The translations under genes were made by a program, and so were the position numbers. A DNA stretch of 64,000 bases, taken from assembly GCF_016907715.1 (NCBI RefSeq), contig NZ_JAFBCM010000001.1:4836001-4900000 (forward strand), written 5' to 3'. Origin of the DNA: Tenggerimyces flavus (lineage in GTDB: Bacteria > Actinomycetota > Actinomycetes > Propionibacteriales > Actinopolymorphaceae). Below, piece by piece: positions 19,361-60,726 of this stretch. Position 1 is the stretch's first letter; the number at the start of each line of letters is the position of its first letter. The notes below the pieces were generated by a model. That model made no database searches, was not told the DNA's origin, and worked only from the letters and a program-made list of their open reading frames with translations.

Positions 19361-20338
19361 ATGGCGGACCCAGCACTGCTCGAGAACATCCCGACCGAGC
19401 CGGCGACCCCGGAACGACGGACTCTGAAGAGCAAGTCCCCCACCCAGATCGCGCTCGAGCGACTGCGGCAGGACAAGATCGCCATCATCTGTGCCGTCGT
19501 CGTCCTCATCTTCGTGCTGATCGCGATCTTTGCCAACGTGATTACGTCCCTGACGGGCACGGACGCGTACGCGACGAACCAGGATCTCATCGACGAGTAC
19601 GGCTTCCCGATGATCAACCCGAGCGCCGCGCACCCGTTCGGCATCGAGCCGCGGCTCGGCCGCGACCTGTTCGCCCGCTGGGTGCAGGGCGCGCGCCCGT
19701 CGCTCCAGGTCGGGGTCCTCGCGGCGGTGCTCTCCACGATCATCGGCACGATCATGGGCATGCTGGCGGGCTTCGCCGGAGGCTGGATCGACCGGGTCAT
19801 CTCCTGGGTCATCGACTTCCTGCTCTCGCTGCCGCTCCTGCTCTTCGTGATCGCGATCGGCCCGGTCGTCGCGACTCGGTTCGGCAACGACGCCGAGACG
19901 GTCTCGACGGTCCGGCTGTGGACGTTGATCCTGGTCTTCGCATTCTTCGGCTGGACCGGTCTGGGACGGCTGATTCGTGCGCAGGTGTTGTCGTTGCGCG
20001 AACGCGAGTTCATCCTCGCCGCGCGGGCCATCGGCGTACCGCGGTACCAGGTGCTGTTCCGCGAGCTGCTGCCGAACTTGACCGGCCCCATCATCGTCTT
20101 CTTGTCGCTGTCCATCCCGGCCTACATCTCGGCCGAGGCAGGCCTGTCGTTCCTCGGCATCGGCCTGGTCGAACCCACGGCGTCCTGGGGTCAGACGATC
20201 TTCCAGGCACAGAACTACTACCAGACCTATCCCATCTATTTCTGGCAACCAGCGCTGGGCATTCTCGTCCTCGTGCTGGCCCTGAACCTTCTTGGCGACG
20301 CGATCCGCGACGCGTTCGACCCCAAGACACGTCGGTAA
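19361..20338 (+). CDS. Oligopeptide-type ABC transporter permease (OppC/DppC family)
   Basis: Membrane subunit of a peptide/nickel-type importer. It has one N-terminal TM (IAIICAVVVLIFVLIAIFA), a periplasmic loop with the AHPFGIEPRLGRDLFARW sequence typical of OppC, then five TM segments with the EAA loop (RAIGVPRYQVLFRELLPN). ATG 19361 gives 325 residues. GTG 19310 is in frame with AGGTGG upstream and would add 17 polar residues, so the start is not settled. It is the first gene of a five-gene operon, ahead of its own binding protein, which is an unusual order. Confidence 0.9.
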   Translation: MADPALLENIPTEPATPERRTLKSKSPTQIALERLRQDKIAIICAVVVLIFVLIAIFANVITSLTGTDAYATNQDLIDEYGFPMINPSAAHPFGIEPRLGRDLFARWVQGARPSLQVGVLAAVLSTIIGTIMGMLAGFAGGWIDRVISWVIDFLLSLPLLLFVIAIGPVVATRFGNDAETVSTVRLWTLILVFAFFGWTGLGRLIRAQVLSLREREFILAARAIGVPRYQVLFRELLPNLTGPIIVFLSLSIPAYISAEAGLSFLGIGLVEPTASWGQTIFQAQNYYQTYPIYFWQPALGILVLVLALNLLGDAIRDAFDPKTRR

Positions 20339-20378
20339 GTCAACGCCGACTGGCAATGAGAGAGGCAGGAAAGATCGA

Positions 20379-22169: not shown

Positions 22170-22180
22170 TCACTGAAGGG

Positions 22181-22206
22181 GTGGGGGACCGGCGACGGTC
22201 CCCCAC
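22181..22206 (+). terminator. Hairpin between binding protein and OppB-type permease
   Basis: GTGGGGGACC / GGTCCCCCAC arms, 10 bp perfect, with a 6-nt loop, 11 bp after the binding-protein stop. There is no T-run. In ABC operons such hairpins often give partial termination or protect the upstream mRNA, so the binding protein is made in excess; that role is inferred here. Confidence 0.6.
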
Positions 22207-22253
22207 CTCATCTGCCAACGTGTCTCCAGGCCGCAGCACAAGGTTGGTACTTC

Positions 22254-23246
22254 ATGCTCGGGTACATCATTCGGCGCATCTTGGCCGGAATCACCGTCGT
22301 CTTGGTGGCAATGGTCGCCGCGTTCGTGCTGTTCTTCGTGGGGCCGACCCAACCGGAGTACGCGATCTGCGGTGACCGCAACTGCACGCCCGACCGGCTC
22401 GCGGACATCCGTGCCAGCCTGTCGCTCGACGAACCTGTCATGAAGCAGTTCACCGACTACTTCGGTGGCATCTTCACCGGTCGCGAGATCAAGACCGGTG
22501 GCTTCACGAAGGAATGCCCCGTTCCGTGTCTCGGCTACTCCTATGTCGCCAACGACCCGGTGACGAAGCTGATCGTCGAACGCATACCGGTGACCTTGTC
22601 GGTCGCGTTAGGCGCGATGGTCTTCTTCTTGCTCATCGGGATCACGACCGGGGTGTACGCGGCCATCCATCGAGGGACGATCCTCGACAAGCTTCTGGTG
22701 GGCGGATCGCTGGTCCTGTCGGCGTTCCCGTACTACATCGTGGCCTTGCTGGCGGCGATCTATCTGTCCATCCAGTACGAGATATTCCCGCGCGGCGGCT
22801 ATGTGCCGTTAACCCAGAATCCGATCGGCTGGTTCAAGGGCCTGCTGCTCGCCTGGTTCGTCCTCGGCCTGGTCTACGCCACGCAGTACGCGCGATATAC
22901 GCGAGCCGCGATGGTGGAGGCGTTAGGCGAGGACTACGTCCGGACCGCGCGGGCCAAGGGGCTGACCCGGCGGAAGGTCTACTTCCGGCACGCGCTCCGG
23001 GCGGCGCTGACTTCCGTGGTCACGATCCTCGGCCTCGACCTCGCGGGACTGTTCGCCGGAACGATCTTCACCGAACGGATCTTCGATGTGCAGGGGCTCG
23101 GCATCCTGGCGTTGAACGCGTTCAACGTCGGTGACCTGCCGTTGATCATGGGTTCGGTGCTGTACGCCGCGATCATCCTGGTGGCTCTGAACATCCTGAT
23201 CGACATCGTGTACAGCTTCCTCGATCCCCGAGTCAGACTGAGCTGA
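22254..23246 (+). CDS. Oligopeptide-type ABC transporter permease (OppB/DppB family)
   Basis: 330 residues. N-terminal MLGYIIRRILAGITVVLVAM is the standard OppB/DppB opening. An extended extracytoplasmic loop (residues about 35-100) contains four cysteines (AICGDRNC, ECPVPC), more than usual, possibly two disulfides. Five further TM segments follow, with the EAA loop RTARAKGLTRRKVYFRHALR. It pairs with the OppC-type permease upstream of the binding protein. Its ATG lies 84 bp after the binding-protein stop. Confidence 0.93.
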   Translation: MLGYIIRRILAGITVVLVAMVAAFVLFFVGPTQPEYAICGDRNCTPDRLADIRASLSLDEPVMKQFTDYFGGIFTGREIKTGGFTKECPVPCLGYSYVANDPVTKLIVERIPVTLSVALGAMVFFLLIGITTGVYAAIHRGTILDKLLVGGSLVLSAFPYYIVALLAAIYLSIQYEIFPRGGYVPLTQNPIGWFKGLLLAWFVLGLVYATQYARYTRAAMVEALGEDYVRTARAKGLTRRKVYFRHALRAALTSVVTILGLDLAGLFAGTIFTERIFDVQGLGILALNAFNVGDLPLIMGSVLYAAIILVALNILIDIVYSFLDPRVRLS

Positions 23247-23255
23247 GCTGAATCC

Positions 23256-24302
23256 ATGACTGATGCCACCACGAACGGGCGACCGTTCCTCGAGGTCGAA
23301 GACCTCAGTGTCCGCTTTCCCACCGCCGACGGCGTCGTCGCCGCCGTCCAGGGCCTCAGCTACTCCGTCGAGCTCGGAAAAACCCTCGGCATCGTGGGGG
23401 AGTCCGGCTCGGGCAAGAGCGTGTCGAGCATGGCGATCATGGGCCTGCACGACACCAAGCGCACGAAGATCGACGGCCTGATCCGGGTCGAGGACACCGA
23501 CATCGTCGGCCTCGAGGACGAGAAGATGCGCCGCGTTCGCGGCAACCTCGTCTCGATGATCTTCCAGGACCCGCTGTCGAGCCTGCACCCGTTCTTCTCG
23601 ATCGGCGACCAGATCTCCGAGGCGTACCTCTCGCACCACCCGCGGGCGTCGAAGTCCACGGCGAAGAAGCGCGCGATCGAGATGCTGGACCGCGTCGGCA
23701 TCCCACAGGCGAACCGTCGGGTCGACGACTACCCGCACCAGTTCTCCGGCGGCATGCGCCAGCGCGCGATGATCGCGATGGCGTTGGTGAACGACCCGAA
23801 GCTGCTGATCGCGGACGAGCCGACGACGGCGCTGGACGTCACCGTTCAGGCGCAGATCCTGGACCTGCTGCAGGACCTGCAGCGCGAGTTCGGGTCGGCG
23901 ATCATCATCATCACCCACGACCTCGGCGTCGTCGCGGAGATGGCGGACGAGGTTCTCGTCATGTACGCCGGCCGCTGCGTCGAGTACGGGGCGGCGAAGG
24001 AGATCCTGACCCACCCCGAGCATCCGTACACCTGGGGCCTGCTCACCAGCGCCCCGCACCTCACCGGTGACCCGGACCTGCGGCTGACGCCGATCCGGGG
24101 CAACCCGCCGAGCCTCATCGACCTGCCGAAGGGCTGCTCGTTCGAGCCGCGGTGTCCGTACGCCAACCGGCTGCCGGACAACCGGGCCGCCGAGGTGCTG
24201 CCCGAGCTTCGCCCGGGTGGGCGCGGTCGCGGACACTTGGTCCGTTGCCATCTGCCCAATCCGGAAGAGATCTTTGTCAACGAGGTTCAGCCGCGGCTCT
24301 GA
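23256..24302 (+). CDS. Peptide ABC transporter ATP-binding protein (OppD/DppD family)
   Basis: 348-residue nucleotide-binding subunit: Walker A GESGSGKS, signature FSGGMRQR, Walker [15 protein letters not shown], and H-loop [11 protein letters not shown]. The C-terminal oligopeptide extension carries the [10 protein letters not shown] cysteine pattern often linked to an Fe-S site. It begins 9 bp after the permease. It overlaps the next ATPase if the upstream ATG (24302) of that gene is used. Confidence 0.94.
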
Positions 24303-35171: not shown

Positions 35172-36004
35172 GCTCCACGCAGCATCACTGCGCTGTCCTG
35201 GGCAAGCCGATCGCGCACTCGTTGTCGCCCGTGCTGCATCGCACGGCGTACGCGGAGCTCGGGCTGGACTGGACGTACTCGGTGCACGAGGTGGACGAGG
35301 CCGGGCTCGCCGCGTTCGTCGACGGGGTGGACGCCTCGTGGCGCGGGCTGTCGCTGACGATGCCGTTGAAGCGCGCGGCGATCCCGTTGTGCGACGAGGT
35401 GGACGAGGTCGCGCGTACGGTCACCGCGGTCAACACGCTGCTGCTCGACGAGAACGGCCGGCGGCGCGGTACCAACACCGACGTCCCGGGCATGGTGGCG
35501 GCGTTGCGCGAACGCGGTGTCGACGCGGTCGAGTCCGCGCTGCTGTTGGGCGTCGGTGCGACGGCCTGCTCCGCGGTCGCCGCGCTCGCGTCGCTTGGCG
35601 CCAGGACGGTGATGGCGGTCGCGCGGAACGCCGCGACCGCGGGCGAGCTGCGGGCGGTCGCGGAACGCTGCGGCGTCGAGGTCGCGCTTGTGTCGTTCGA
35701 CGACCTCGGCTCGCTCGACGCCGCGGACGTCGCCGTGTCGACCGTTCCCGACGCCGCGTCGGCCGTCGTCGCCGACACCGTCGTGAAGCGCGTGGGCACG
35801 ATCTTCGAGGTGCTGTACGACCCGTGGCCGACGGTGCTCGCGGCAGCGGGGGAGCAGGCCGGCCGGACCGTCGTCGGCGGCTTCGATCTGCTCGTACACC
35901 AGGCGGCGTTGCAGGTCGAGCTGATGACGGAACGTACGCCCGCGCCGCTCGCCGCGATGCGTTCCAGCGGTGTCGCGGCGTTGCGAGCAAGATGGGGTAA
36001 GTGA
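35141..36004 (+). CDS. aroE: Shikimate dehydrogenase
   Basis: NADPH-dependent reduction of 3-dehydroshikimate. Shikimate-binding AHSLSPVLH, catalytic Lys in LTMPLKRAAIP, Asp in GTNTDVPGM, nucleotide loop LLGVGATACSAVAAL, and C-terminal GFDLLVHQAALQ. ATG 35141 (287 residues) has AGGAG 8 nt upstream but overlaps mltG by 31 bp; ATG 35165 is an alternative with a shorter overlap and poor SD. The stop overlaps the FAD oxidoreductase by 4 bp. Confidence 0.93.
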   Translation: MVPRQQRAMLSSTQHHCAVLGKPIAHSLSPVLHRTAYAELGLDWTYSVHEVDEAGLAAFVDGVDASWRGLSLTMPLKRAAIPLCDEVDEVARTVTAVNTLLLDENGRRRGTNTDVPGMVAALRERGVDAVESALLLGVGATACSAVAALASLGARTVMAVARNAATAGELRAVAERCGVEVALVSFDDLGSLDAADVAVSTVPDAASAVVADTVVKRVGTIFEVLYDPWPTVLAAAGEQAGRTVVGGFDLLVHQAALQVELMTERTPAPLAAMRSSGVAALRARWGK

Positions 36005-37587
36005 CGAACGAACGGGGATCCGACCGCAGGACCGTGCTGCGCCTCGCGGCGCTCGCAGGGGTGGCGGTCACGACGGGCTGCGGCACCGGCGGCAACGGCG
36101 CGACGCCACTGCCCTCGAAGACACCGAGCATCGCGCGGAACCCGCAGGGTCCGACACCTACGCCGGTGCGGCCCAGCGCCAGCCCACCGACGTTCTCGCC
36201 GTCGCCGGTTCCCGCGCCGACGGCGACCGCTCCGCCCACCCCGATCGCGACGGCCCGTGCGACCGCACCCGCGGCGGCGGACTGGAACGCGTTGTCCAAG
36301 GGGCTGCGCGGCGACCTGCTGCGTTCCGGCCCGGCGTACGACACCGGCCGCACGCTGTTCAACCCGCGCTACGACAACGTCAAGCCAGCAGCCGTCGTCC
36401 GCTGCGCCGAGCCCGCCGACGTCGCCGAGTCGATCGCGTTCGCACGCAGGTTCGGCCTCCCGATCGTCTCGCGCAGCGGCGGTCATTCCTACGTCGGTGC
36501 GTCGACGCGGGCGGGCGGGATGGTGCTCGACGTGCGTCCGATGGCCGACATCACCGTCGGGTCGGGCACAGCACGGATCGGCGCCGGCGCACAACTCGAG
36601 TCGGTCTACTCCATCCTCGGTGCGCGCGGCCGCGTCGTGCCGGGAGGGACGTGCCCCACAGTCGGCATCGCGGGGCTCGCGCTCGGCGGCGGTGAGGGGC
36701 TGGCCACCCGCAAGTTCGGCTTGACGTGCGACGCGATCCAGTCGCTGCAGCTCGTCACCGCGGACGGGAAGATCCGCACGGTCGACGCAAACCACGATCC
36801 CGAGCTGTACTGGGCCTGCCGCGGTGGTGGCGGCGGCACGTTCGGCGTGGTGACCGCCTTTCAGATGAAGACGTTCCCGTCGCCGACGTTCTCCTCGTTC
36901 CGCGCGACCTGGTCATGGTCCAACGCAGGCGCGGTGCTGCGTGGTTGGCAGAACAGGATGCGCGCGGTCGGCGACAACGTCTGGGCCAACCTGCACCTGC
37001 AGACGACGTCGGGCGGGAGCCGGTCCGCGGTGGTGTTCGGCGTGACGTACGACAACGATCCGAACGACCAGCTGGCCAAGCTCGTCGCCGCGGTGGGCAA
37101 GGACCCGAGCGGAACGTCGATCAGGCGCAACCGCAAGCTCGGCCCGCTCGGTGGCTCGGACCGGGTGACGTTCTTCGCCGGCAGCGACGTGCTGAAGGCA
37201 CCGATCCCCGCGGCCGGCATCGACGCCGTGCTCGCGGTCGTCAACCGGGCCGTTGCCGCGAAGCTGCAGGCCGACGCGATCTTCGACCCGCTCGGAGGAG
37301 CTGCCGGACGCGTCGGGGCGGACGCGACCGCGTTCCCGTGGCGGTCGGCGTTCGCGACGATCCAGTGGTACGCCGAGCGGGGCCGCACGACCACGGCCGC
37401 AGCGGAGAAGTGGGTGAGCGACAGCCATGCCTCGGTGCGCGCGTCGTCGGCCGGCGCGTACGTCAACTACCTCGAGCCGTCGCGACCGGGCGCCCACCCG
37501 TACTTCGGGACGCACCTGAAGCGGCTGCGGGCGGTGAAGGCGAAGTACGACCCGGGCAACGTGTTCCGCCCGGGCTACGTACTCTGA
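36001..37587 (+). CDS. Tat-exported FAD-dependent oxidoreductase (berberine-bridge type)
   Basis: 528 residues. The N-terminus SDRRTVLRLAALAGVAVTTG is a twin-arginine signal; a TTGC site (Cys27) suggests a possible lipoprotein. A Pro/Thr linker runs to about residue 95. Then the PCMH FAD domain with SRSGGHSYVG (His162) and PGGTCPTVGIAG (Cys218), the two positions that bind FAD bicovalently in this family. The C-terminal BBE motif is YDPGNVFRPGYV. It probably oxidises a sugar, alcohol or natural product outside the membrane; substrate unknown. GTG overlaps the aroE stop. Confidence 0.9.
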   Translation: MTNERGSDRRTVLRLAALAGVAVTTGCGTGGNGATPLPSKTPSIARNPQGPTPTPVRPSASPPTFSPSPVPAPTATAPPTPIATARATAPAAADWNALSKGLRGDLLRSGPAYDTGRTLFNPRYDNVKPAAVVRCAEPADVAESIAFARRFGLPIVSRSGGHSYVGASTRAGGMVLDVRPMADITVGSGTARIGAGAQLESVYSILGARGRVVPGGTCPTVGIAGLALGGGEGLATRKFGLTCDAIQSLQLVTADGKIRTVDANHDPELYWACRGGGGGTFGVVTAFQMKTFPSPTFSSFRATWSWSNAGAVLRGWQNRMRAVGDNVWANLHLQTTSGGSRSAVVFGVTYDNDPNDQLAKLVAAVGKDPSGTSIRRNRKLGPLGGSDRVTFFAGSDVLKAPIPAAGIDAVLAVVNRAVAAKLQADAIFDPLGGAAGRVGADATAFPWRSAFATIQWYAERGRTTTAAAEKWVSDSHASVRASSAGAYVNYLEPSRPGAHPYFGTHLKRLRAVKAKYDPGNVFRPGYVL

Positions 37588-37592
37588 CCCTC

Positions 37593-39050
37593 GTGAGTGA
37601 CGCGACCCCGCTGAGGCTGTTCAACACGTTGGGCCGGCAGGCCGAGGACTTCGCCGTGCCGGCGGGACAGCGCGTGGGCCTGTACTCGTGTGGTCCGACG
37701 GTCTACGCCGACCCGCACCTGGGCAACATGCGGCCGTACGTCTTCAGCGACACGCTGCGCCGCGTGCTCGCGTGGAAGGGCTACGACGTCACGCAGGTCG
37801 TGAACATCACCGACGTCGGGCACGCGGTCGGCGACGGCGACGAGGGCGAGGACAAGGTCGAGCTCGGCGCGCGGCGCGAAGGGCGCACGGTCCAGGAGGT
37901 GACCGCGCACTACACGCAGGTCTACTTCGACGCGATGGCGGCGCTGAACGTGCTGCCCGCGCACGACTACCCGCGCGCCTCGGACTACGTGCCGCAGATG
38001 ATCGACTTCGCCCGCGAGATCGAGGCGAACGGCTTCACGTACGCGCTGCCGTCGGGGCTGTACTTCGACACGTCGCGCTCGCCGTCGTACGGCGCGCTGG
38101 CGTTGCGGCCCGCGGAGGGTGCGCTCGAGGGCGCGCGCGTCGCGGCGGTCGAGGGGAAGCGGAACGCCGCGGACTTCGCCGTGTGGCGTACCGATCCGCC
38201 GGACTCGCCGCGCATCATGCGCTGGGACTCGCCGTGGGGACCGGGCGTACCGGGTTGGCACCTGGAGTGCTCGGTGATGAGTATCGCCTTGCTGGGAAGG
38301 CATTTCGACATCCACACCGGGGGAGTGGACCACCGCGAGATCCACCACCCGAACGAGATCGCGCAGAGCGAGGCGTACCTGTCCGACGCTAAACCGTGGG
38401 TGCCGTTGTGGATGCACAACGAGTTCCTGGTGTCGAACGGACGCAAGATCGCCAAGTCCGGCGGCAAGATGCCGACGTTGGCGGAGTTCGCGACGACGTC
38501 GCACCCGTTGGCGTTCCGGTACTTCCTGCTGACCGCGCACTACCGCAGCCAGCTCGACCTGACCGACGCCGGGCTGTCGAGTGCGACGGGTGCGTACCGC
38601 CGGCTGCTCGCGCGCGCCGCGCCGCTGCGGCCGCTGCCCTCGGTTCGCACGTTCGAGGAGGGGCGTTCGAAGCTGACCGGTGCGGCGCTGGAGTCGTTGA
38701 TCGAGCTCGACGCCGCGGTGTCGGACGACCTGCACACCCCGCGTGCGTTGGCGATCCTGCACGGTGCGCTGCGTTCGGACGCGTTGAACGACGCGGACAA
38801 GGCGGTGCTCACCGGCGCCGCGGACTTCCTGCTGGGCCTGTCGCTCGACGAGCTCGACGCGGGCGCCGTCGAGGTGACGGAGTCGGCGGCGGAGCTGCCG
38901 GTCGTGGAGATCGAACGGTTGGTCGCCGCCCGTACGGCCGCCCGCGCCGCGAAGGACTGGGCCGAGGCCGACCGGCTGCGCGGCCGGCTGACCGAGCTCG
39001 GCGTGACCGTGACCGACACCGCGGACGGGCCGGTCTGGCAGCCCGCCTGA
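37593..39050 (+). CDS. cysS: Cysteinyl-tRNA synthetase (divergent)
   Basis: 485-residue class I synthetase of the CysS family: zinc/active-site CGPTVYADPHLGN (HIGH-like HLGN), WHLECSVMS, and HTGGVDHREIHHPNEIAQSE holding the zinc His/Glu ligands. A KMSKS-like KIAKSGGK follows. The C-terminal DALR and anticodon parts are present, so it is a full-length CysS rather than mycothiol ligase MshC. The HIGH and KMSKS variants and the accessory location suggest a second copy. GTG 37593 starts 5 bp after the oxidoreductase. Confidence 0.88.
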   Translation: MSDATPLRLFNTLGRQAEDFAVPAGQRVGLYSCGPTVYADPHLGNMRPYVFSDTLRRVLAWKGYDVTQVVNITDVGHAVGDGDEGEDKVELGARREGRTVQEVTAHYTQVYFDAMAALNVLPAHDYPRASDYVPQMIDFAREIEANGFTYALPSGLYFDTSRSPSYGALALRPAEGALEGARVAAVEGKRNAADFAVWRTDPPDSPRIMRWDSPWGPGVPGWHLECSVMSIALLGRHFDIHTGGVDHREIHHPNEIAQSEAYLSDAKPWVPLWMHNEFLVSNGRKIAKSGGKMPTLAEFATTSHPLAFRYFLLTAHYRSQLDLTDAGLSSATGAYRRLLARAAPLRPLPSVRTFEEGRSKLTGAALESLIELDAAVSDDLHTPRALAILHGALRSDALNDADKAVLTGAADFLLGLSLDELDAGAVEVTESAAELPVVEIERLVAARTAARAAKDWAEADRLRGRLTELGVTVTDTADGPVWQPA

Positions 39051-39079
39051 CGCACAGCGCTGTCGTCGTGGACGACACC

Positions 39080-39152
39080 TGGCCAGCAGGTCCTTGACGC
39101 GGCGTCTACCCCACGTAAAGCGGCAGTTGATCATGTCAACATGATCATTGGC
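39080..39152 (+). repeat. Family A structured repeat, copy A3 (degenerate)
   Basis: Retains TCTACCCCACGTAAAGCGGC and the core TGATCATGT-ca-ACATGATCA (39128-39147), but outer stem pairs are lost and the 5' part is diverged. It lies between the convergent cysS and TetR genes. This is the most decayed of the four copies. Confidence 0.7.
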
Positions 39153-39168
39153 CCATCCCGTTGGACGC

Positions 39169-39777
39169 TCAGGGGCGTGGCGCGGGTGGTGGGCCGAGGA
39201 GGGCGATGGCGGCCTGGACGGAGACGTCCAGGATGTCGGCGGGCCGACCGCCTTCCTCCACGGTCGTCGCGATCAGCTCGCGCAAGCCACCGAGCAGGAT
39301 CAGCGCCAGGCCGCGGTCCACGCCGTCGGGGCGGATCGCCCGCCACGCGTCGGTCGCGGTCAGCACCTGCACCATCCGTACGAACGCGTCCATCATCTCC
39401 CGCTGCAGCGCACGCGCCGGGATGCCCAGCGTGGGGATGTCGCGGATCCAGCTCACCACGATCCACGGCGCCGACTCGGCGTGCTCGATCCATGCCTCGA
39501 TCGCCTGCCGGACCTGCACGTGCCAGGGCGCGTCGGGGGAGACCGCGGCCTCGATGCCGCGGATCATCGCCACGTTCGCCTCGTTCAGCAACGCGATCAG
39601 GCACTCGCCGAGGCTGCCGAAGTGCTCGTAGAACGTCCGCCGCGAGGTCCGGGCACGGCGGACGACGTCGGCCACGGTCGTGTTCCGGTAGCCGATCTCC
39701 GCGATCGACTCGCCCAGGCCGTCGAGCAGCCGCTGGCGATAGGGATCGCCGGTCCGCAGGAGCTGCTGGGTCGTCAT
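39169..39777 (-). CDS. TetR-family transcriptional regulator
   Basis: 202 residues: N-terminal HTH (LLDGLGESIAEIGYRNTTVA followed by VVRRARTSRRTFYEHFGS) and an all-helical ligand-binding C-terminus. ATG 39777 is used; GTG 39786 is in frame. Neither has a strong SD. It is divergent from the P450 operon with 88 bp between them. Paired palindromes lie in that gap, so it is very likely the repressor of that operon. Confidence 0.9.
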   Translation of the reverse strand: MTTQQLLRTGDPYRQRLLDGLGESIAEIGYRNTTVADVVRRARTSRRTFYEHFGSLGECLIALLNEANVAMIRGIEAAVSPDAPWHVQVRQAIEAWIEHAESAPWIVVSWIRDIPTLGIPARALQREMMDAFVRMVQVLTATDAWRAIRPDGVDRGLALILLGGLRELIATTVEEGGRPADILDVSVQAAIALLGPPPAPRP

Positions 39778-39810
39778 CGTCGTCACCGTAGTCGAGGTCT
39801 TGTGCCGTGC

Positions 39811-39851
39811 TGGTACATCAGCGTACCGTCCCTGGTACGCGACCGTACCAG
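39811..39851. promoter_or_regulatory. Twin palindromes, probable TetR operators
   Basis: CTGGTAC-N6-GTACCAG (39832-39851) is perfect with 7-bp arms. A second, GGTAC-N6-GTACC (39812-39827), has the same spacing. The centres are about 22 bp apart, two helical turns, so two dimers could bind on one face. The pair sits between the TetR start (39777) and P450 start (39866). Confidence 0.65.
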
Positions 39852-39865
39852 GTTGGAGTTGGTCC

Positions 39866-41200
39866 ATGACGACGCTTCCACCCAGTCCGTCCTCGCCGCG
39901 CTTCGTGCAGGCGCTCGCGACGCTGACCCAGCCGCATCGCGGCATGCGGAGGATGCGAGAGCGGTACGGCGACGCGTTCACGATCCACCTCCCGCCGTTC
40001 GGCGACGCCCCGGTGATCAGCGATCCGGGGGAGATCAGGCAGCTGTTCCAGGCCAGCACCGACGTCGCGGAGACGCTCGAGCCGAACCTCGGCCGCGTGC
40101 TCGGCCCGGGGTCGCTGTTCGCGCTGAAGGGCGACGAGCACCGCTCCCAGCGCAAGCTGCTGATCCCGCCGTTCCACGGACGCCGGCTGGCCGCGTTCGA
40201 GCAGCTCGTCGAGGACGAGACCGTCCGTGAGCTGGCCACGTGGCCGGAGGGTCGCCCGTTCCCGGTCCTGCCGTCGACCGCGCGGATCACGCTGAACGCA
40301 ATCCTGCGCGCCGTCTTCGGCGCCGAGGGCGCCGAGCTGGAGGAGCTTCGGGAGCTGCTGCCCCGGATGGTGACGCTCGGCTCGCGGCTGCTCTTCCTCC
40401 CGATCCCGCAGGGCGGCGGGCGGTGGAGTCCGTGGGGCCGGTACCGCGCCGCGCGGCAGAAGTACGACGCGATCGTCGACCGGCTCGTCGACAAGGCCGA
40501 ACGCGACGAGCGCCTCGACGAGCGGAACGACGTGCTCGCGATGATGCTGCAGAGCCGGTACGAGGACGGAACGGCCATGTCCCGACGGGATCTCGCCGAC
40601 CAGCTGCTCACGCTGCTGGCCGCCGGACACGAGACGACCGCGACCACCCTCGCCTGGCTGGTGGAGCGGCTCCGCAGGCACCCGAACGTTCTGCACGACC
40701 TGGTCGTCGAGGTGGACGCCGGCGGCAAGGAGCTGCGCGAGGCGTCGATCATCGAGGTGCAGCGGGTCCGGCCGGTCATCGACATCGTCGGCCGGCATAT
40801 CAAGTCCGATATACAGCTTGGCCGCTGGACGGTGCCTAAGGGACGCAACGTGCTGGTCAGCATCGACCTGATCCACGACGACCCGGCGGTGTTCCCGAAC
40901 CCGCGCGCGTTCGACCCGTCCCGGTTCCTCGGGACGAAGCCGGACCTGCACCATTGGATCCCGTTCGGCGGAGGCATCCGGCGCTGCCTCGGCGCCGCGT
41001 TCGCGTCGATGGAGCTGAACGTGGTGCTGCGGACGACGCTGCGCGATTTCACGCTCGTACCGACGAGCGACCCGGACGAACGCTGGCGCTCCCGCGGCGT
41101 CGCCAACGCTCCGGCGAAGGGCGGCATCGCGGTCGTGCACCGCCGAGCGATCCGCGTCCTGCCTGCCGCGGCCGGGGCGACGACGGGAGCACGGTCGTGA
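39866..41200 (+). CDS. Cytochrome P450
   Basis: 444-residue heme-thiolate monooxygenase: I-helix AAGHETTATT, ExxR in IIEVQRVRP, and heme loop PFGGGIRRCLGAAFA with ligand Cys374. No membrane anchor, so it is a soluble bacterial P450 that needs ferredoxin partners; none is encoded nearby. ATG 39866 has GGAG 7 nt upstream. It is the first gene of a four-gene operon with hydrolase, SDR and BVMO, suggesting oxidative breakdown or tailoring of a lipophilic substrate. Confidence 0.93.
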   Translation: MTTLPPSPSSPRFVQALATLTQPHRGMRRMRERYGDAFTIHLPPFGDAPVISDPGEIRQLFQASTDVAETLEPNLGRVLGPGSLFALKGDEHRSQRKLLIPPFHGRRLAAFEQLVEDETVRELATWPEGRPFPVLPSTARITLNAILRAVFGAEGAELEELRELLPRMVTLGSRLLFLPIPQGGGRWSPWGRYRAARQKYDAIVDRLVDKAERDERLDERNDVLAMMLQSRYEDGTAMSRRDLADQLLTLLAAGHETTATTLAWLVERLRRHPNVLHDLVVEVDAGGKELREASIIEVQRVRPVIDIVGRHIKSDIQLGRWTVPKGRNVLVSIDLIHDDPAVFPNPRAFDPSRFLGTKPDLHHWIPFGGGIRRCLGAAFASMELNVVLRTTLRDFTLVPTSDPDERWRSRGVANAPAKGGIAVVHRRAIRVLPAAAGATTGARS

Positions 41201-42084
41201 GCGAGAAGGAGGTCGAGGTCGGGCGCGGCATCACGTTGGCGTACGACGAGCTCGGCGACGCCGGCGGCGAGCCGCTGCTGCTGGTCGCTGGGCTGGGGCA
41301 GCAGCTGTACAGCTGGCCCGAGCCGTTCTGCGTCTCGCTCGCCGACCGCGGCTACCGGGTGATCCGGTTCGACAACCGCGACGCCGGCCGGTCGACGCAC
41401 CTGCGGTTCCGGCCGCCGAGCTTCGGCGCGATGATGATGCGGCGTTGGCCGAACGGGCAGTACGACCTCAGTGACATGGCGGCCGATACCGTCGGGCTGC
41501 TCGACCAGCTCGGCGTGGCCGACGCGCATCTCACCGGCATCTCGATGGGCGGCATGATCGCGCAGACCGTTGCCGCGCGGTATCCGCGGCGCGTGCGGAC
41601 ATTGACGTCGATCATGTCGACGACGGGTGCGCGCCGGATCGGGCGGCCGGCGCTGTCGACGTGGCGGCTGATGCGCGGCCGGGCGCGTTCGCGGGAGGAG
41701 GCCGAGGCACGAGCCGTACGCCTGTTTCGGCATATCGGATCGCACGGCTTCCCGTTCAACGAGGCGTACGTTCGGGAGGCGACCGGCCGCGCGTGGGACC
41801 GCGACCCGTCGTCGGCCGGAGTGGGCCGCCAGCTGGGCGCGATCTTCCGTTCCGGCGACCGGACCGCGATGCTCGGTGAGGTGACCGCGCCGACGTTGGT
41901 GATCCACGGCGACCGCGACCGGATGGTCAACCCGACCGGCGGTGCGGCCACGGCTCGCGCGATCGCCGGCGCGCGGCTGGAGACGATCCGCGGCATGGGC
42001 CACGACCTTCCGCAGGCCGCGTGGCCGAAGCTGCTCGAGCTCATCGACGACCATGCCAGGAGGAAGAGCGATGCCACCACCTAG
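41197..42084 (+). CDS. Alpha/beta-hydrolase
   Basis: 295 residues. Nucleophile elbow GISMGGM (Ser116), oxyanion segment LLLVAGLGQQLYSW, acid/His region VIHGDRDRMVNP and GMGHDLP. This is the proline-iminopeptidase/haloperoxidase-like group. In this operon it could hydrolyse an ester or lactone made by the BVMO (inference). GTG 41197 overlaps the P450 stop by 4 bp; the C-terminus overlaps the SDR start by 14 bp. Confidence 0.9.
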   Translation: MSEKEVEVGRGITLAYDELGDAGGEPLLLVAGLGQQLYSWPEPFCVSLADRGYRVIRFDNRDAGRSTHLRFRPPSFGAMMMRRWPNGQYDLSDMAADTVGLLDQLGVADAHLTGISMGGMIAQTVAARYPRRVRTLTSIMSTTGARRIGRPALSTWRLMRGRARSREEAEARAVRLFRHIGSHGFPFNEAYVREATGRAWDRDPSSAGVGRQLGAIFRSGDRTAMLGEVTAPTLVIHGDRDRMVNPTGGAATARAIAGARLETIRGMGHDLPQAAWPKLLELIDDHARRKSDATT

Positions 42085-42925
42085 CAGGTCTAGCATCACC
42101 GGCCGCCCGGTCATGATCACCGGCGCGGCGTCGGGCATCGGTCGGGCGCTGGCGCGGCGGCTGTCCCGGTTCGGTGCGCCGGTCGCCATCGCGGACGTCG
42201 ACGAGGCGGGGCTGAAGGAGACCGCCGCGTCGTTGGGCGGCATGGTGTTGACCCGGGTGCTGGACGTCCGTGACGCGGACGACGTTCATCGCTTCGCCGG
42301 CGAGGTCCGGGGCTGGCTGCCGGCACCGCTCGCTGCCGTCTTCAACAACGCGGGCGTCGCCGTCACGTCGACCCTGCTCGAGGCCGATCCGGACGACGAC
42401 GAGTGGCTGTGGAACATCAACTTCCACGGCGTCGTGAACGGGACCCGCGCGTTCCTCCCGTTGCTCGTCGAGCAGAACGAGGGCGCGATCGTCAACACGT
42501 CGAGCGTCTACGGCCTGGTCGGCGTGCCGTACCAGACCGCTTACTGCGCTGCGAAGTTCGCGGTCCGCGGCTTCACCGATTCGCTGCGACAAGAGCTGCG
42601 GCGTACCGGCGTCCGTGCCGTCGCGATCCATCCCGGCGGCATCACCACGAACATCGCCCGCAACGCGCGCGTCCGCAAGGACCCGACCGGGCTGGGCCGG
42701 ACGAAGGACCAGCTGGCGGCGGAGTTCGAGGCTGTGACAATGACCTCGCCGGACAAGGCCGCCGAGATCATCCACCGCGGCATGGAACGCGGCAAGGCGC
42801 GCATCCTGGTCGGGCCGGACGCGTACCTGATCGACGCGCTCGCCCGCCTCACCCCGACGCACTCCTACCAGGCGATCATGGCCGTGCAGAAGCGGCTGTG
42901 GGCCATGAGGAGATCGGGCCGGTGA
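42071..42925 (+). CDS. Short-chain dehydrogenase/reductase
   Basis: 284 residues, classical [15 protein letters not shown] cofactor loop, NNAG, catalytic Ser in IVNTSSVYG, and YCAAK (Tyr/Lys). The Asp after beta2 (AIADVDE) favours NAD(H). It likely interconverts an alcohol and ketone, feeding the adjacent BVMO. ATG 42071 has a strong SD (aggagg). It overlaps both neighbours. Confidence 0.93.
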
Positions 42926-44397
42926 CCCACTTCGACGTGGTGATCGTCGGCGCTGGGCTGTCCGGCGTCGGAGCGGCGCACCAGCTGCAGGCGGCGTTCC
43001 CGCGGCGTACGTACGCGATCCTCGAGGCGCGCGACGTCATCGGTGGCACCTGGGACCTGTTCCGCTACCCGGGCGTGCGGTCCGACTCCGACATGAACAC
43101 GCTCGGGTACCGCTTCCGCCCGTGGACCGACGCCAAGTCGATCGCCGACGGCCCGTCGATCCTGCAGTACGTCCGCGACACCGCGCACGAGGCCGGCGTC
43201 GACCGGCACATCTGGTTTGGCCACCGGGTCGTCCGCGCGTCCTGGTCGACGGCCTCCGCGCGGTGGACGATCGAGGCCGAGCACGACGGCGCACCGGTGG
43301 TCATCACGGCCTCGCTGTTGTACCTGTGCAGCGGCTACTACCACTACGACCGCGGCCACCAGCCGCCGTTCCCCGGCATCGATCGCTTCGGCGGCACGGT
43401 CGTGCATCCGCAGCACTGGCCGGAGGACCTGGACTACACCGACAAGCGGGTCGTGGTGATCGGCAGCGGCGCGACGGCGGTCACGCTGGTGCCGGCGATG
43501 GCGGACCGCGCCACGCACGTGACGATGCTGCAGCGGTCGCCGTCGTACGTCTCGACGCTGCCGCGGGAGGACGCGCTCGCGATCAAGCTGCGCCGCTGGC
43601 TCGGCGCGCGGCGTGCGTACTTCTTCGTCCGCTGGAAGAACGTGTTGATCAGCACGTTCTTCTACCAGCTGGCCCGGCGGCGGCCGGAGCGTGTGAAGGC
43701 GCTGCTCCGCGAGGCCGCGGTGAAGCAGCTGCCAGCGGGCTTCGATGTCGACACGCACTTCAAGCCGCGCTACAACCCGTGGGACCAGCGGCTGTGCTTC
43801 GTACCGGACGGCGACCTGTTCCGCGCCGTTCGCCGTGGTCGTGCCTCGGTGGTCACCGACGTGATCGACGAGTTCACGCCGTCGGGTCTTCGGCTGGCTT
43901 CGGGTGCGGAGCTGGACGCGGACATCGTGGTGACGGCGACCGGGCTGCGGTTGTTGCCGTTCGGTGGCATCGAGCTGGTGGTCGACGGTCGGGCCGTGGA
44001 GCTGCCGAAGACGATGGCGTACAAGGGCATGATGCTCAGCGACGTGCCGAACTTCGTGTTCACGATCGGCTACACGAACGCGTCGTGGACGTTGAAGGCC
44101 GACCTGGTGACGGAGTACACGATCAGGTTGCTGCGGCAGTTGGACGCGCGTGGGTTCGACCAGTTCGTGCCGAGCCTCGACGACCCGACCGTGACCGAGC
44201 GGCCGTTGCTGGACTTCCAGGCGGGGTACGTGCTGCGGTCGATCGACGCGTTCCCGCGGTCGGGGTCGCGGGCTCCGTGGCGGTTGGGGATGAGCTACGC
44301 GCAGGACCTGCTCGCCCTGCGCCACGGGCGCATCGAGGACGGCGCGATGCGCTTCTCTCGCCGACCCGCGGTCAGCTCGGCGGTGCCCTCCCCGTAG
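42922..44397 (+). CDS. Flavin monooxygenase, Baeyer-Villiger type
   Basis: 491 residues. FAD loop GAGLSGVG near the N-terminus, [17 protein letters not shown] (typical of the Rv3083/EthA-like clade), NADPH loop [13 protein letters not shown], and the BVMO fingerprint [12 protein letters not shown], which fits FxGxxxHxxxW. It should insert oxygen next to a ketone or oxygenate a heteroatom. Monooxygenase + lipase-like hydrolase + SDR recall the mycobacterial mymA operon (Rv3083-Rv3085). GTG 42922 overlaps the SDR stop. Last gene of the operon. Confidence 0.92.
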
Positions 44398-55982: not shown

Positions 55983-56041
55983 GGGGGGCCTCGAGGGCCC
56001 TGCGCGCTGCCGGAGTTACCAGGCTCGGGCAGCGCCGCTCG

Positions 56042-57343
56042 TTACTTGCAGTTGTACTTCGGGTTGCGCTTCGGCTCGACGTCGTACTTGCTCGTCTGCC
56101 ACGTGATCGCGGCGCCGGCGCGGAGCTTGAAGAAGGCCTGCTTGAACTTCTCGTGCACCGACGCCGAGTTGATCCGAAGGATGACCTCGTCGTTGTAGAG
56201 AGGCGACTTGTTGTTCATGTTGTGGCTGCCGGTGACGACGATCTTCTGGTTCGGCTTGCCGTTGAAGTGGCCGTCGATGAGCACGTTCTTCTGGTGTACG
56301 CCGCACTGACTGCCGCTGAACTCGCGGACCTCGGGGCCGTGGTAGTTGTCCCGCTCGGGCGGCATCGCGACCGGCCGGGCCAGCAGGTACTCCAGCGCCC
56401 CCTTGGGGCCATTGCGCTTCTTCTTCAGCGAGATCTCGTCCGCCACGATGTCCACGTAGCAGCCCTGGTTGTCGAGTTCCCACAGCCGCTTCGCGATGTT
56501 GATCCCGTTCTTGCCCGCGATCTGCATCTGCGCGACCCGCACGATGGTGTGGTGCTTGCCGGTCGTGCCGCCGGAGGTGTTTCCCTTGCATTTCACCGCG
56601 TTCAGCACGTCCAGGTAGACGTTGCCCGACGTCCGCGGCGACACATTCATCGCGAACTTCCCGTTCGACGGGCTGTGCTTCGATCGGAACGTGGAGTAGT
56701 AGTCGGAGTCACTGGCACCCGGCGCGCTCGCCGCGGAGAGGTCGTTGAAGTACGCCAGGTACTTCGAGTACAGCCAGGCGTCCGGCGTGACGTACGCCGT
56801 GTTCCACATGTTCGTTCCCGAGTGCCCGTTCAGGTTGGCGCTCGTCTGCACGACGACGTTCGAGGTGCCGCCCGTCTTGCCGAAGAGGAAGAACTTGTTG
56901 TGCATGATGTGCTCGCCCATGCACGAGGAACCCTTGTTGTCGGCGTCCAGGTCGGGCTTTCCGCAGTGCTTGATCCAGGATCCGGACGGAGCGTCCGCGA
57001 TGGCGCTCTTGATCGTCTTGTAGGGATCCAAGCCCTCGTCGAGCCCGTCGGCCAGGATCCGGACCCGGACGTTCCGCTTCAGAGCGTCAGCGAGCTCGTT
57101 GGCGACCGCCCTGTCGTTCATGTGGTAGGTCGCGATCGTGATGTCGGTGTCCTCGGCGCCGCGAATGAGCTGCACCAGCCGATCGTGGATCGCGAACTTG
57201 CTGGCGGAGGAGTCCGGGTTGTTCTGCAGGACCTCCTCCGTGACCGCGCGCTCCTCGGCCGATCCCGTCGTGACCGTGCTCGTCACAAGCACGATGGCCG
57301 CCGCGGCGGCAACCGCTCCTTTGGCTAGGTCCCGTGGTCTCAT
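56042..57343 (-). CDS. Secreted phospholipase D-like protein
   Basis: 433 residues with an N-terminal signal (LAKGAVAAAAAIVLVTSTVT). Two HKD-type motifs are visible: HNKFFLFGK, where the usual Asp is replaced, and HQKNVLIDG, which fits HxK(x)4D. Each is followed by an Asn motif (ANLNGHSGTN; GSHNMNNKSP). Four or more cysteines suggest disulfides. Related secreted PLD proteins of actinomycetes hydrolyse phospholipids, but the altered first motif makes the activity uncertain. ATG 57343. Confidence 0.88.
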   Translation of the reverse strand: MRPRDLAKGAVAAAAAIVLVTSTVTTGSAEERAVTEEVLQNNPDSSASKFAIHDRLVQLIRGAEDTDITIATYHMNDRAVANELADALKRNVRVRILADGLDEGLDPYKTIKSAIADAPSGSWIKHCGKPDLDADNKGSSCMGEHIMHNKFFLFGKTGGTSNVVVQTSANLNGHSGTNMWNTAYVTPDAWLYSKYLAYFNDLSAASAPGASDSDYYSTFRSKHSPSNGKFAMNVSPRTSGNVYLDVLNAVKCKGNTSGGTTGKHHTIVRVAQMQIAGKNGINIAKRLWELDNQGCYVDIVADEISLKKKRNGPKGALEYLLARPVAMPPERDNYHGPEVREFSGSQCGVHQKNVLIDGHFNGKPNQKIVVTGSHNMNNKSPLYNDEVILRINSASVHEKFKQAFFKLRAGAAITWQTSKYDVEPKRNPKYNCK

Positions 57344-57452
57344 GGCCGCGACCGTACGGATCGCAGCTATACGCCCGTTATCGAACGTCCATAACGACCC
57401 CATAAGCCCGCCTCCTACCGTCGGACCGGCGACGAAACGGAGAGGGGAGAAC

Positions 57453-57920
57453 GTGAAGAGCAAGCGGCTGATCGCCGCGGTGGCGGGTGTCCTGGCACTC
57501 ACCACTGGGGTCGGTGCGGCGCAGGCAGAGGTCTCGACCAACGAGCTGGACTGCCGAGAGACAGCCCACACCTACAAGGACAGCAACAAGCTCTATCTCT
57601 ACGGCCGGTCCTACTGCAAGGGCGGCAACGACGAGTGGGACGACGACAACGACAGCGACTACGGCGACGGCAAGGGCAAGATCACCGCCTTCGACAACAA
57701 GACCGACTCCATCGTCAACACCACCAAGAAGAACGTCGCCTTCTTCAACAAGCCAAACTATGAGGGCGACAGCTTCTGCCTCCGCCCGGGCAACTACCTG
57801 CGGCGCCTGTACGTGTACGGCGACGGGGAGGGCACGAACAACTGGTGGAGCAACAGCATCAGCTCGCACAAGTTCGTCGACGCGGGCGACTGCGACCGCT
57901 GGTTCGGGTGGCTCGTCTAG
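57453..57920 (+). CDS. Secreted crystallin-fold protein (peptidase inhibitor I36-like)
   Basis: 155 residues: signal peptide (KRLIAAVAGVLALTTGVGAAQA), then a domain with Greek-key-like repeats AFDNKTDSIVNTTKKNVAFF and NKPNYEGDSFCLRPGNYLR, plus an Asp-rich loop. Four cysteines, two possible disulfides. This matches the beta/gamma-crystallin-like I36 inhibitor family of streptomycetes; target protease unknown. GTG 57453 has GAGGGGAGA upstream. It is divergent from the PLD gene, 109 bp between. Confidence 0.82.
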   Translation: MKSKRLIAAVAGVLALTTGVGAAQAEVSTNELDCRETAHTYKDSNKLYLYGRSYCKGGNDEWDDDNDSDYGDGKGKITAFDNKTDSIVNTTKKNVAFFNKPNYEGDSFCLRPGNYLRRLYVYGDGEGTNNWWSNSISSHKFVDAGDCDRWFGWLV

Positions 57921-57987
57921 GGGATCAAGCCGAATCCGGCCTTTCCGGGTCGAGAAGGACACCCGTTGTTGACTACTCTGCTGTGCC

Positions 57988-60726
57988 ATGGGGGCGGCGG
58001 AGGTACGGGTCCTGGGGCCGGTCGAGGTCCTTGTCGACGGTGAGCCTGTCGAGCTGCCCGGGCGGCGGTCCCGTCAGGTGCTCGCGGCCCTCGCTGTCGA
58101 CGTGGGGCGTTCGGTCTCCGTCGAACGGCTGGTCGACCTGGTCTGGTCGCACGACCCGCCGAAGTCCGTACGTACCCAGGTCGCGATCCAGATCTCCGCG
58201 CTGCGACGCGCTCTCGGCGAGGCCGTCGAGACGACCGCTGAGGGCTACCGGCTGCGGGACGACGCCGTACGAGTCGACGCCGACCGGGCCGAACGAGCTC
58301 TCCGGGAGGCCCGCGAGCAGGACTGCGCCGACGACGCGGTCGGGCTGCTCCGCGCGGCCCTGAAGCTGTGGCGCGCCGAGCCGCTCGTCGGCCTCCGGAC
58401 GCCCGGCCTCGAGATCGTCGTCCGCGGACTGGGGGAGTTGCGTACAACACTCGCCGACGAGCTCTACGACGCCGAGCTCAGGCTCGGCAGGCACCGCGAG
58501 GTGATCAACGAGCTGCGCGCACTCGTGGAGGAGGATCCGTTGCGGGAACGGTTCCGCGCGAAGCTCATGACCGCGCTCTGGCGGTCCGGCCGCAAGGTCG
58601 AGGCTCTCGAGGCCTACCAGGCCGGGCGGAACCTCCTCGTCGAGCAGCTCGGCATCGAGCCCGACCCGAAGCTGCGGGACCTGCATCAGGCGATCCTCGC
58701 CGACGACCACGCCGCCGACGAGGCGGACGCGGAGCCGGCCCCACCGGCAGCGGTCGCGCCCGCCGAGGTGCCGTCGACCTCGCCCACGTTCACCGGACGC
58801 GAGGCCGAGCTCGCAAAGCTGCTGGGCTCGACCGCGCGCCGCCTCGCCCTGAACGGCCCGGGCGGCGTCGGCAAGTCCTGCCTCGCCTGGCAGGTCGCGG
58901 CTGCCCTCGCCCCCGAGCATCCCGACGGCCAGCTGTACGTCAACCTGCACGGCGCGACCCCCGGGACCGAACCGCTGGCACCGCTGGACGTACTCCGGAG
59001 GTTCCTGCGCTCGCTCGGACTTCCGGACCGCGACATCCCGTCGACCGAGGACGAGGCTGCCGCCCGGTTCCGCACGCTCACCGCCGGCCGACGGCTGCTC
59101 GTCGTCCTCGACGACGCGCTGAACGGGAGTCAGGTACGCCCGCTCCTGCCCGCCGGTCCGGACGCGACCACGATCGTCACCAGCCGCTCCGTGCTCGCGG
59201 ACCTCGAAGACGCCGACCACCTCGCCGTCGGCGGCATGGACGACGTCCGCTCGGTCGAGCTGCTGGCCCGCCTGGTTGGGACCGCCCGCGTCGCCGCCGA
59301 GCCGCACGCCGCCACGGAGGTCGTCCAGCAGTGCGGACGGCTGCCGCTCGCGGTCAAGATCGCGGGTGCCCGGCTGGTCGGGCGGCCGGACTGGGCGCTG
59401 GCCACGTTCGCCGCGCGGCTTCGTGACGAACGCAACAGGCTGGACGAGCTGCAGTACGGCGACCTCGCCGTCCGCGCCAGCCTCGCCGTCGGTTGGCAGG
59501 GCCTGAACGACACCGCCACCCGCCTGCTCGGACTGATCGGAACGCTCGAGCTCGACGAGCTCGGACTCGAAGCCGCGGCTGCCCTCGACGGCCGCGCACC
59601 GAGGGCGGTCCGGCGCGACCTGGACCAGCTGGTGGAGGCCCGGCTGCTCGAGCCCGGCGCCGGACCCGACCGCTTCACCGTGCACGACCTGGTCCGGCTC
59701 GACGCCCGGGAACGCTCCGCCCAGCTGTCCGCGACCGAGCGGGACGAGGCCGCGAGACGGCTCGTGCACTTCTTCCTGGAGAGTCTGCGCACGGCCTCGC
59801 GGCTCTACGCGCCGCACTCGGCCTGGCGGGTGACCACCGGCGTCGCCGACCACGAGCTGCGCGCGAGCGGCATGGCGTTCGCGGACCGGCAGGCGATCAT
59901 CGACTGGATCCGGGCGGAGAGCGGCAACCTGGTCCGGCTCGCCCACCTCGCCGCAAGCCTGGGCGGCGGCGAGCTGGTCGCGTACGCGGTCGCGCTGCAC
60001 GTTCCCGTCGGGAGCCAGGGCTACTGGCAGGAGCGGCGCGAGATCTACGAGCTCGTACTGGCGGAGAGCACCGCGGACGTGGCGTACGTCCAGCGTGACC
60101 TGGGGCTCGTCTGCTGCCATCTCGGCCTGTTCGACCGGGCGCGGGTAGTCCTGGAGCAGGCGGTGCGGACGTTCCGGGACCGCGGGGACGCCTATCTCGA
60201 GGCCGACACGCTGGTCCTGCTGGCCGAGGCCGACGGCGAGGTCGACCACCTCCGGCGAGCCCGCGCCCTGTCGCAGCGGTTCGACGACTACCGGCTCGAG
60301 GCGAACGCGCTCGTCGCGATGTCGGAACTGCTCGCCAAGGGCGGCGAGTACGCGGACGCGCGCGGCTGCCTGGAGAAGGCCCTCGACCTGTACCGCACCC
60401 AGGGCAGTACGACCGGCATCGGCCGCGCGCTGGGCAAGCTGGGGGAGCTGTGCCAGCGGTCCGGGGACCTGGAGGACGCCGCCTCGTACCTCAGCCAGGC
60501 GGTCGAGGCCTGCCGGAAGGTCGGCATGAGCCTGCGGGAAGCCGCCCGAACGTGGGACCTGGCCGACGTCCTGCACGACCTCGGGCACGTCGACGAAGCG
60601 CGCCGCCACCGGGACGCCGCGATCGAGCTGGGCGTCCGCCTGGGTGCGATCGCGCCTGACCAGGTCGAGGCGCTCAAGGCCGAGCCCAGACCTCCCCGGC
60701 CCGGGAGCCTGCGCTCCGACCCGTGA
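57988..60726 (+). CDS. SARP/AfsR-family transcriptional regulator
   Basis: 912 residues. An N-terminal OmpR-like DNA-binding domain (VEVLVDGEPVELPGRRSRQV) and BTAD (to about 250) define the SARP group. An NB-ARC ATPase domain follows, with P-loop LNGPGGVGKSCLAW (near 288) and LLVVLDDALNG (Walker B). The C-terminal 300 residues are TPR-like (YLEADTLVLLAEADGEV onward). Large SARPs activate antibiotic or morphological genes. The only close targets are the secreted genes upstream; no biosynthetic cluster is in the window. Confidence 0.93.
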   Translation: MGAAEVRVLGPVEVLVDGEPVELPGRRSRQVLAALAVDVGRSVSVERLVDLVWSHDPPKSVRTQVAIQISALRRALGEAVETTAEGYRLRDDAVRVDADRAERALREAREQDCADDAVGLLRAALKLWRAEPLVGLRTPGLEIVVRGLGELRTTLADELYDAELRLGRHREVINELRALVEEDPLRERFRAKLMTALWRSGRKVEALEAYQAGRNLLVEQLGIEPDPKLRDLHQAILADDHAADEADAEPAPPAAVAPAEVPSTSPTFTGREAELAKLLGSTARRLALNGPGGVGKSCLAWQVAAALAPEHPDGQLYVNLHGATPGTEPLAPLDVLRRFLRSLGLPDRDIPSTEDEAAARFRTLTAGRRLLVVLDDALNGSQVRPLLPAGPDATTIVTSRSVLADLEDADHLAVGGMDDVRSVELLARLVGTARVAAEPHAATEVVQQCGRLPLAVKIAGARLVGRPDWALATFAARLRDERNRLDELQYGDLAVRASLAVGWQGLNDTATRLLGLIGTLELDELGLEAAAALDGRAPRAVRRDLDQLVEARLLEPGAGPDRFTVHDLVRLDARERSAQLSATERDEAARRLVHFFLESLRTASRLYAPHSAWRVTTGVADHELRASGMAFADRQAIIDWIRAESGNLVRLAHLAASLGGGELVAYAVALHVPVGSQGYWQERREIYELVLAESTADVAYVQRDLGLVCCHLGLFDRARVVLEQAVRTFRDRGDAYLEADTLVLLAEADGEVDHLRRARALSQRFDDYRLEANALVAMSELLAKGGEYADARGCLEKALDLYRTQGSTTGIGRALGKLGELCQRSGDLEDAASYLSQAVEACRKVGMSLREAARTWDLADVLHDLGHVDEARRHRDAAIELGVRLGAIAPDQVEALKAEPRPPRPGSLRSDP

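Follow-up and report, generated by a model that had tools for sequence, protein, structure and literature searches.

A TetR-linked twin operator and a predicted carbon-chain-cleaving P450 operon of Tenggerimyces flavus with relatives across the actinobacteria

The mymA operon (Rv3083-Rv3089) of Mycobacterium tuberculosis begins with a gene for a Baeyer-Villiger monooxygenase (BVMO), is governed by the AraC-type regulator VirS, and also encodes the HSL-type (hormone-sensitive-lipase-type) lipase LipR, AdhD and FadD13 but no cytochrome P450. Camphor catabolism in Pseudomonas putida runs through P450 hydroxylation, alcohol oxidation and then Baeyer-Villiger insertion, and it has its own putidaredoxin and reductase and two-component type II BVMOs. 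The repressor of that system, CamR, is TetR-like (PMC4592980). In the EthR/EthA system a TetR repressor lies divergent to a BVMO, and the EthR operator has been described as larger, more complex and present in multiple copies (PMC4482099). Finally, in the Rv0135c/Rv0136 (TetR/CYP138) pair of M. tuberculosis the repressor and the P450 are divergent, and loss of cyp138 by deletion altered the metabolism of triacylglycerols and fatty acids (PMC10999552). Here, a five-gene locus of the actinobacterium Tenggerimyces flavus is compared with these systems. It lies in a stretch of 64,000 nucleotides (the window; contig NZ_JAFBCM010000001.1, positions 4,836,001 to 4,900,000) and consists of a tetR gene opposite four enzyme genes in the order P450, hydrolase, short-chain dehydrogenase/reductase (SDR) and BVMO. 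It is probably an inducible catabolic operon for subterminal, camphor-like oxidation of a carbon chain, and its predicted regulation by TetR through twin operators is well supported.

An earlier note on this region had read it as a TetR-controlled, carbon-skeleton-opening operon, a subset of which (monooxygenase, lipase and SDR) resembles mymA. The region and gene calls were confirmed, as was the operon-like arrangement of the enzyme genes, which overlap by 4, 14 and 4 nt. Pfam backs all five assignments (Table 1) and the catalytic motifs of the enzymes are complete, with AGHETT, EVQR and FGGGIRRCLG in the P450, the nucleophile motif GISMG in the hydrolase, and TGAASGIG and YCAAK in the SDR. 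The 491-aa product of the last gene has the type I BVMO fingerprint FxGxxxHxxxW[PD] at residue 156 and the Rossmann motif GAGLSG at residue 10, so that it fits a type I BVMO, for which Baeyer-Villiger activity is predicted. Searches against solved structures found a close relative for neither the P450 nor the BVMO, and the top NCBIfam matches of the hydrolase are macrolide esterases, under cut-off. The gene set is thus chemically able to open a carbon skeleton, as had been proposed.

The likeness to mymA is that a BVMO, a hydrolase and an SDR occur in one operon, and the comparison does not go further. The regulator here is of the TetR and not the AraC type, the P450 gene comes first and the BVMO gene last, as the earlier note had itself remarked of the P450 and TetR arrangement, the hydrolase belongs to PF00561 and has no HSL model among its matches, and the next gene 3' of the BVMO is pilD. 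Membership of the mymA operon is ruled out by the regulator, the gene order and the hydrolase family. EthR/EthA likewise combines a TetR repressor with a BVMO; BVMOs flanked by EthR are 54-58% identical to this one, and the TetR of the window has EthR as one of its closest folds. The TetR studied here matches TetR_N only and no EthR_C domain, whereas the EthR neighbours at L192, L200 and L176 match PF21313. In a quick tree the BVMO falls into a clade of cluster enzymes (35 rows, support 95) and outside the clade of BVMOs with an EthR neighbour (6 rows, support 100). Both this tree and the neighbouring regulator rule out that it is the orthologue of EthA. The phylogeny against EthA and MymA that had been suggested thus places this BVMO in a clade of its own near EthA, and MymA cannot be placed with certainty in a tree that holds no sequence labelled as such. 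With camphor catabolism the locus shares the order of chemical steps, but its alcohol dehydrogenase is different, ferredoxin and reductase genes were not found in the cluster, and the two are not homologous as systems.

The divergent promoter between tetR and the P450 gene holds two GGTAC-N6-GTACC palindromes (Op1 and Op2), both real, with a start-to-start distance of 22 bp or about two helical turns, as had been noted before. The exact pattern occurs at two places in the window, both in this intergenic promoter, and at three places in the whole genome of 8,519,422 bp (a reversed control pattern gave 2 per strand). The third site (5131361) falls within a predicted open reading frame (ORF) and was discounted as a chance match. 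In this promoter the twin operator is not a chance occurrence. Transcription of the operon is predicted to start near 39835-39837, inside Op2.

Table 1. Genes and candidate regulatory elements of the five-gene locus (positions in the window).
Feature	Position	Strand	Remarks
tetR, TetR-family repressor gene	39777->39169	minus, divergent to operon	202 aa; PF00440, E 9.5e-10
Candidate -10 of tetR, TACGGT	39785-39790	minus	7 nt ahead of the tetR ATG; read from sequence
Candidate -35 of P450 operon, TTGTGC	39800-39805	+	TTG position conserved across promoters
Operator 1 (Op1), GGTACATCAGCGTACC	39812-39827		CTGGTAC...GTACC from 39810; right arm overlaps -10
Candidate -10 of P450 operon, TACCGT	39824-39829	+	asymmetric base conservation beside Op1
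Operator 2 (Op2), CCTGGTACGCGACCGTACCAGG	39831-39852		9-bp perfect arms; would cover predicted transcription start
Cytochrome P450, CYP138-like	39866-41200	+	444 aa; PF00067, E 4.3e-60
Alpha/beta hydrolase, esterase candidate	41197-42084	+	295 aa, GTG start; PF00561, E 2.5e-25
SDR	42071-42925	+	284 aa; PF00106, E 1.9e-48
BVMO, type I-like	42922-44397	+	491 aa, GTG start; FMO-like PF00743

Relatives were collected by a P450 profile scan of one genome per species over 84,980 species, and the gene content of the best 80 of 574 loci was determined by translated search of each. The exact twin site is present within 250 bp upstream of a P450 in 72 of these 80 loci and in 68 of the 69 that carry a relative of the TetR. 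Site and TetR occur together in 68 loci and are both missing from 7, with 4 loci having the site only and 1 the TetR only (Fisher p 8e-7, uncorrected for relatedness); the sole TetR-only locus (L123) has a single site with one mismatch. Five loci in which the BVMO gene is reversed (L099, L101, L107, L125 and L127) have their own sites before each divergent promoter, and in Nocardia, where tetR is downstream of the BVMO gene, the pair of sites remains before the P450. This co-occurrence supports the earlier proposal of TetR control through two palindromes.

The spacing and the surroundings of the sites are also conserved. Closely spaced pairs number 76 in the window and the 80 loci together, the start-to-start distance being 22–24 bp in 61 of them, 25–26 bp in three, 19 bp in one and 33–35 bp in eleven, the last class being confined to mycobacterial loci with a lone TetR/P450 pair. 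The shorter distances and the 33–35 bp class lie about one helical turn apart, which fits two dimers bound to the same face of the DNA. With Op1 as anchor, 68 of 71 promoters have a TTG that precedes TACC by 17 or 18 bp, against a TTG frequency of 0.7% per position in flanking DNA. Two bases beyond Op1, 69 of the 71 have a T, whereas the mirror position varies freely, with A in 21 of 71, an asymmetry suggesting that the right arm of Op1 doubles as the -10 element, TACCGT. On the other side of the intergenic region, the position of the tetR candidate -10 suggests that the tetR transcript may be leaderless. A promoter of this kind would have its -35 region within reach of Op1, with the two overlapping, which suggests that tetR may be autoregulated.

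Among 395 genomes of the class, the twin pattern was detected in 32, versus 2 for the reversed control. Of 30 such loci examined, 26 carry, next to the sites, a gene related to this P450; in the other four, one pair stands before the SDR/BVMO unit of a split cluster, one before a different P450 with a TetR and one before a molybdopterin hydroxylase with a TetR, and one is a tandem repeat. The pattern in one genome (G331, locus L134) was discarded as a tandem repeat artefact. At L205 (2340-5494), twin sites (4739, 4765) accompany a TetR that is 50% identical to that of the window and that faces a molybdopterin-binding hydroxylase; here another oxidase has apparently come under the same repressor/operator module. 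At L202 (3447-6301) the sites are flanked by a TetR (45%) on one side and, on the other, by a P450 that belongs to a quite different family. Two further loci have twin sites and no relative of this P450, one of them (L203, 4346-4383) close to a weak TetR match and an Ig-domain protein and the other (L204, 4821-4862) close to an AlkZ-like gene.

The AlphaFold model of the TetR (predicted local distance difference test, pLDDT, 91) is composed of an N-terminal TetR_N domain and a helical ligand domain, its nearest folds being FadR and EthR, with a Z of 18.7 to FadR over 182 residues (root-mean-square deviation 2.5). Its recognition region, ARTSRRTFY, is nearly unchanged across 62 aligned sequences. 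When no inducer is present, TetR dimers would occupy both operators, which face almost the same side of the helix. The dimer on Op1 would cover the promoter spacer and the -10 element and that on Op2 the predicted transcription start, so that RNA polymerase would be excluded. Release may be brought about by a hydrophobic, lipid-like compound or its acyl-CoA, an expectation based on the kinship of the TetR fold with FadR and EthR, which points to a ligand that is long and hydrophobic. Once expressed, the P450 would hydroxylate an unactivated C-H, the SDR would convert the alcohol to a ketone, the BVMO would turn the ketone into an ester or lactone by oxygen insertion, and this product would be cleaved by the hydrolase to an acid and an alcohol, the outcome being the cutting of an alkyl chain or of a side chain. 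Each step follows from the enzyme family, the order of the steps and the kind of substrate are inferred, and read in this way the pathway is probable. Electrons for the P450 would be supplied by a ferredoxin and a reductase encoded elsewhere in the genome. EthA, MymA and Rv0565c, which are characterised members of this group of BVMOs, showed a preference for linear ketones, namely 2-octanone and ethyl 3-oxohexanoate (PMC9044951); on this ground the part attacked is somewhat more probably an alkyl chain than a ring. This ketone preference, the TetR fold and the cyp138 phenotype are pointers to the substrate, not proof.

Among the 80 loci, a TetR relative occurs in 69, a BVMO in 43, an SDR in 39, a hydrolase in 32 and all five genes in 28. 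The five-gene loci span at least 10 genera (Nocardia, Amycolatopsis, Mycobacterium, Mycolicibacterium, Rhodococcus, Micromonospora, Planosporangium, Rugosimonospora, Actinocrispum and Actinosynnema), and their enzyme genes are arranged as P450–hydrolase–SDR–BVMO on one strand with a median gap between matches of 37.5 bases. Outside the mycobacteria, the enzymes of full clusters are ca. 58–81% identical to those of the window, and the P450 reaches up to 72% with its cluster homologues. Rearrangements consist of the downstream position of tetR in Nocardia and of a BVMO gene that is reversed and faces the P450 in several mycobacteria. In the flanks of the 80 loci no further gene family is widely common, ferredoxin included; an NAD-kinase-like ORF found at ten loci, mostly of Amycolatopsis, reflects local synteny. 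The earlier remark that ferredoxin partners are missing agrees with these flanks, and the sole Fer4_13 ferredoxin found sits 2.3 Mb from the operon.

Several points weigh against a single catabolic route of this kind. Many TetR folds tie with FadR and EthR as nearest to the model, and the assignment of a ligand class is therefore weak; the 19-bp spacing at L057 is the one exception to the geometry. The SDR could work as a reductase, and no redox partner gene is linked to the operon. Besides, a number of otherwise similar loci are without the hydrolase (present in 32 of 80) or the SDR (39 of 80), and lone TetR/P450 pairs exist, so that the product of the P450 does not have to pass to a BVMO in every case.

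Some of these data also bear on other explanations. The operon might be a detoxification module, that is, a broad P450/BVMO/esterase set acting on foreign hydrophobic compounds with TetR as a xenobiotic sensor and no single carbon source. In keeping with this, the TetR has an EthR-like fold, macrolide esterase models are the best matches of the hydrolase, if under cut-off, the cluster is distributed sporadically, being absent from 7 other genomes of the same family, and BVMOs of the EthA group take many substrates (PMC9044951). The four enzymes form, however, a chemically coherent series whose order is kept over at least 10 genera, which suggests one pathway, and no efflux pump or resistance gene is among the families accompanying the cluster, so that a detoxification role appears unlikely. 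More doubtful still is a role in remodelling or turning over the organism's own envelope lipids, as proposed for M. tuberculosis CYP138. It would account for the altered triacylglycerol and membrane lipids of the cyp138 deletion (PMC10999552) and for the similar P450 and shared operator of mycobacterial loci, but the operon also occurs in genera that have no mycolates and is absent from close relatives of T. flavus, so that it does not belong to an envelope pathway common to them, and the lone mycobacterial P450s have no adjoining SDR, BVMO or hydrolase. That the P450, SDR and BVMO form a tailoring cassette of specialised metabolism, which would decorate a polyketide or a terpenoid in the manner of pentalenolactone biosynthesis, with TetR sensing the end product, is improbable: weak NCBIfam matches of the P450 and the BVMO do include pentalenene oxygenase and PtlE, far under cut-off, but no terpene synthase, polyketide synthase or transporter accompanies the five genes across the 80 loci, the unit moves alone among unrelated neighbourhoods and looks inserted as a block here, and few CYP138 or CYP136 were recorded in mycobacterial biosynthetic clusters in a literature survey (PMC9820752).

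In T. flavus the operon probably arrived as part of a larger block. The P450 of the cluster is absent from the 7 other family genomes compared, in five of which aroE adjoins pilD–aroC, while in two the FAD-oxidase gene adjoins pilD. In T. flavus the stretch 37587–44397, with a cysS-like gene and the operon, intervenes at this point. This block looks inserted; it was either inserted here or lost elsewhere, and the patchy distribution favours insertion. The cysteinyl-tRNA-synthetase-like gene (37587-39050) is 37% identical to another CysS-like gene of the genome and is missing at the equivalent place in the relatives compared; it could be a second, resistance-type copy. The preceding gene (36001-37587) encodes an FAD oxidase of the berberine-bridge type, whose N-terminus (RRTVLRLAALAGVAVTTGC) is twin-arginine/lipoprotein-like, and a homologue of it adjoins pilD in two family genomes. 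Elsewhere in the window, the G+C content falls to ca. 64% at 20001-24000 and 56001-58000, the surroundings being at 70%.

The closest relationship outside the full clusters is with the mycobacterial TetR/CYP138-type pairs, which display the same divergent TetR–P450 layout, the same twin sites (L112, L113, L116, L117, L121, L128 and L129) and the same -35/-10 frame. The P450 of the window is 51-57% identical to these mycobacterial homologues, whose CYP138 name rests on gene order; the usual P450 family cut-off is at least 40% identity. Loci such as L121 and L113 have the order EphF-like hydrolase, TetR, P450, epimerase and CLC channel, and from this order, set against the M. tuberculosis map, they are taken to be the Rv0135c/Rv0136 locus. 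CYP136 (Rv3059) had been considered first, and the context of L121 suits CYP138 better. The mycobacterial pairs differ in having no neighbouring hydrolase, SDR or BVMO of these families and in sites that are 33-35 bp apart, versus 22-26 bp here. A 2015 study predicted a palindromic motif for Rv0135c with an E of 6e-80, the lowest of 30 regulators (PMC4482099), and the operator is thus probably already known in mycobacteria. Literature searches, in which subscription journals were mostly not covered, returned no description of the five-gene cluster or of the operator geometry across actinobacteria. In a FastTree phylogeny of the P450s, cluster and lone forms are intermixed, and the tree does not tell loss from gain of the other genes. 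It is conceivable, as a tentative proposal, that the operon represents a horizontally spread and previously undescribed actinobacterial pathway of subterminal cleavage that acts on unactivated carbon chains, and of which the orphan mycobacterial pairs are reduced remnants that have kept the repressor and the phased twin operator. If so, the substrate and inducer of the operon would point to the substrate of CYP138.

These data connect a complete and conserved chemical sequence in other actinobacteria with an orphan P450 family of M. tuberculosis, with the consequence that the question of the substrate of this family becomes testable in harmless species. The twin operator is unusually specific, with two sites and one probable chance match in 8.5 Mb, and its geometry is kept across many genera, which would make it a clean sensor part, while the set of BVMO, P450, SDR and esterase may be useful for biocatalysis.

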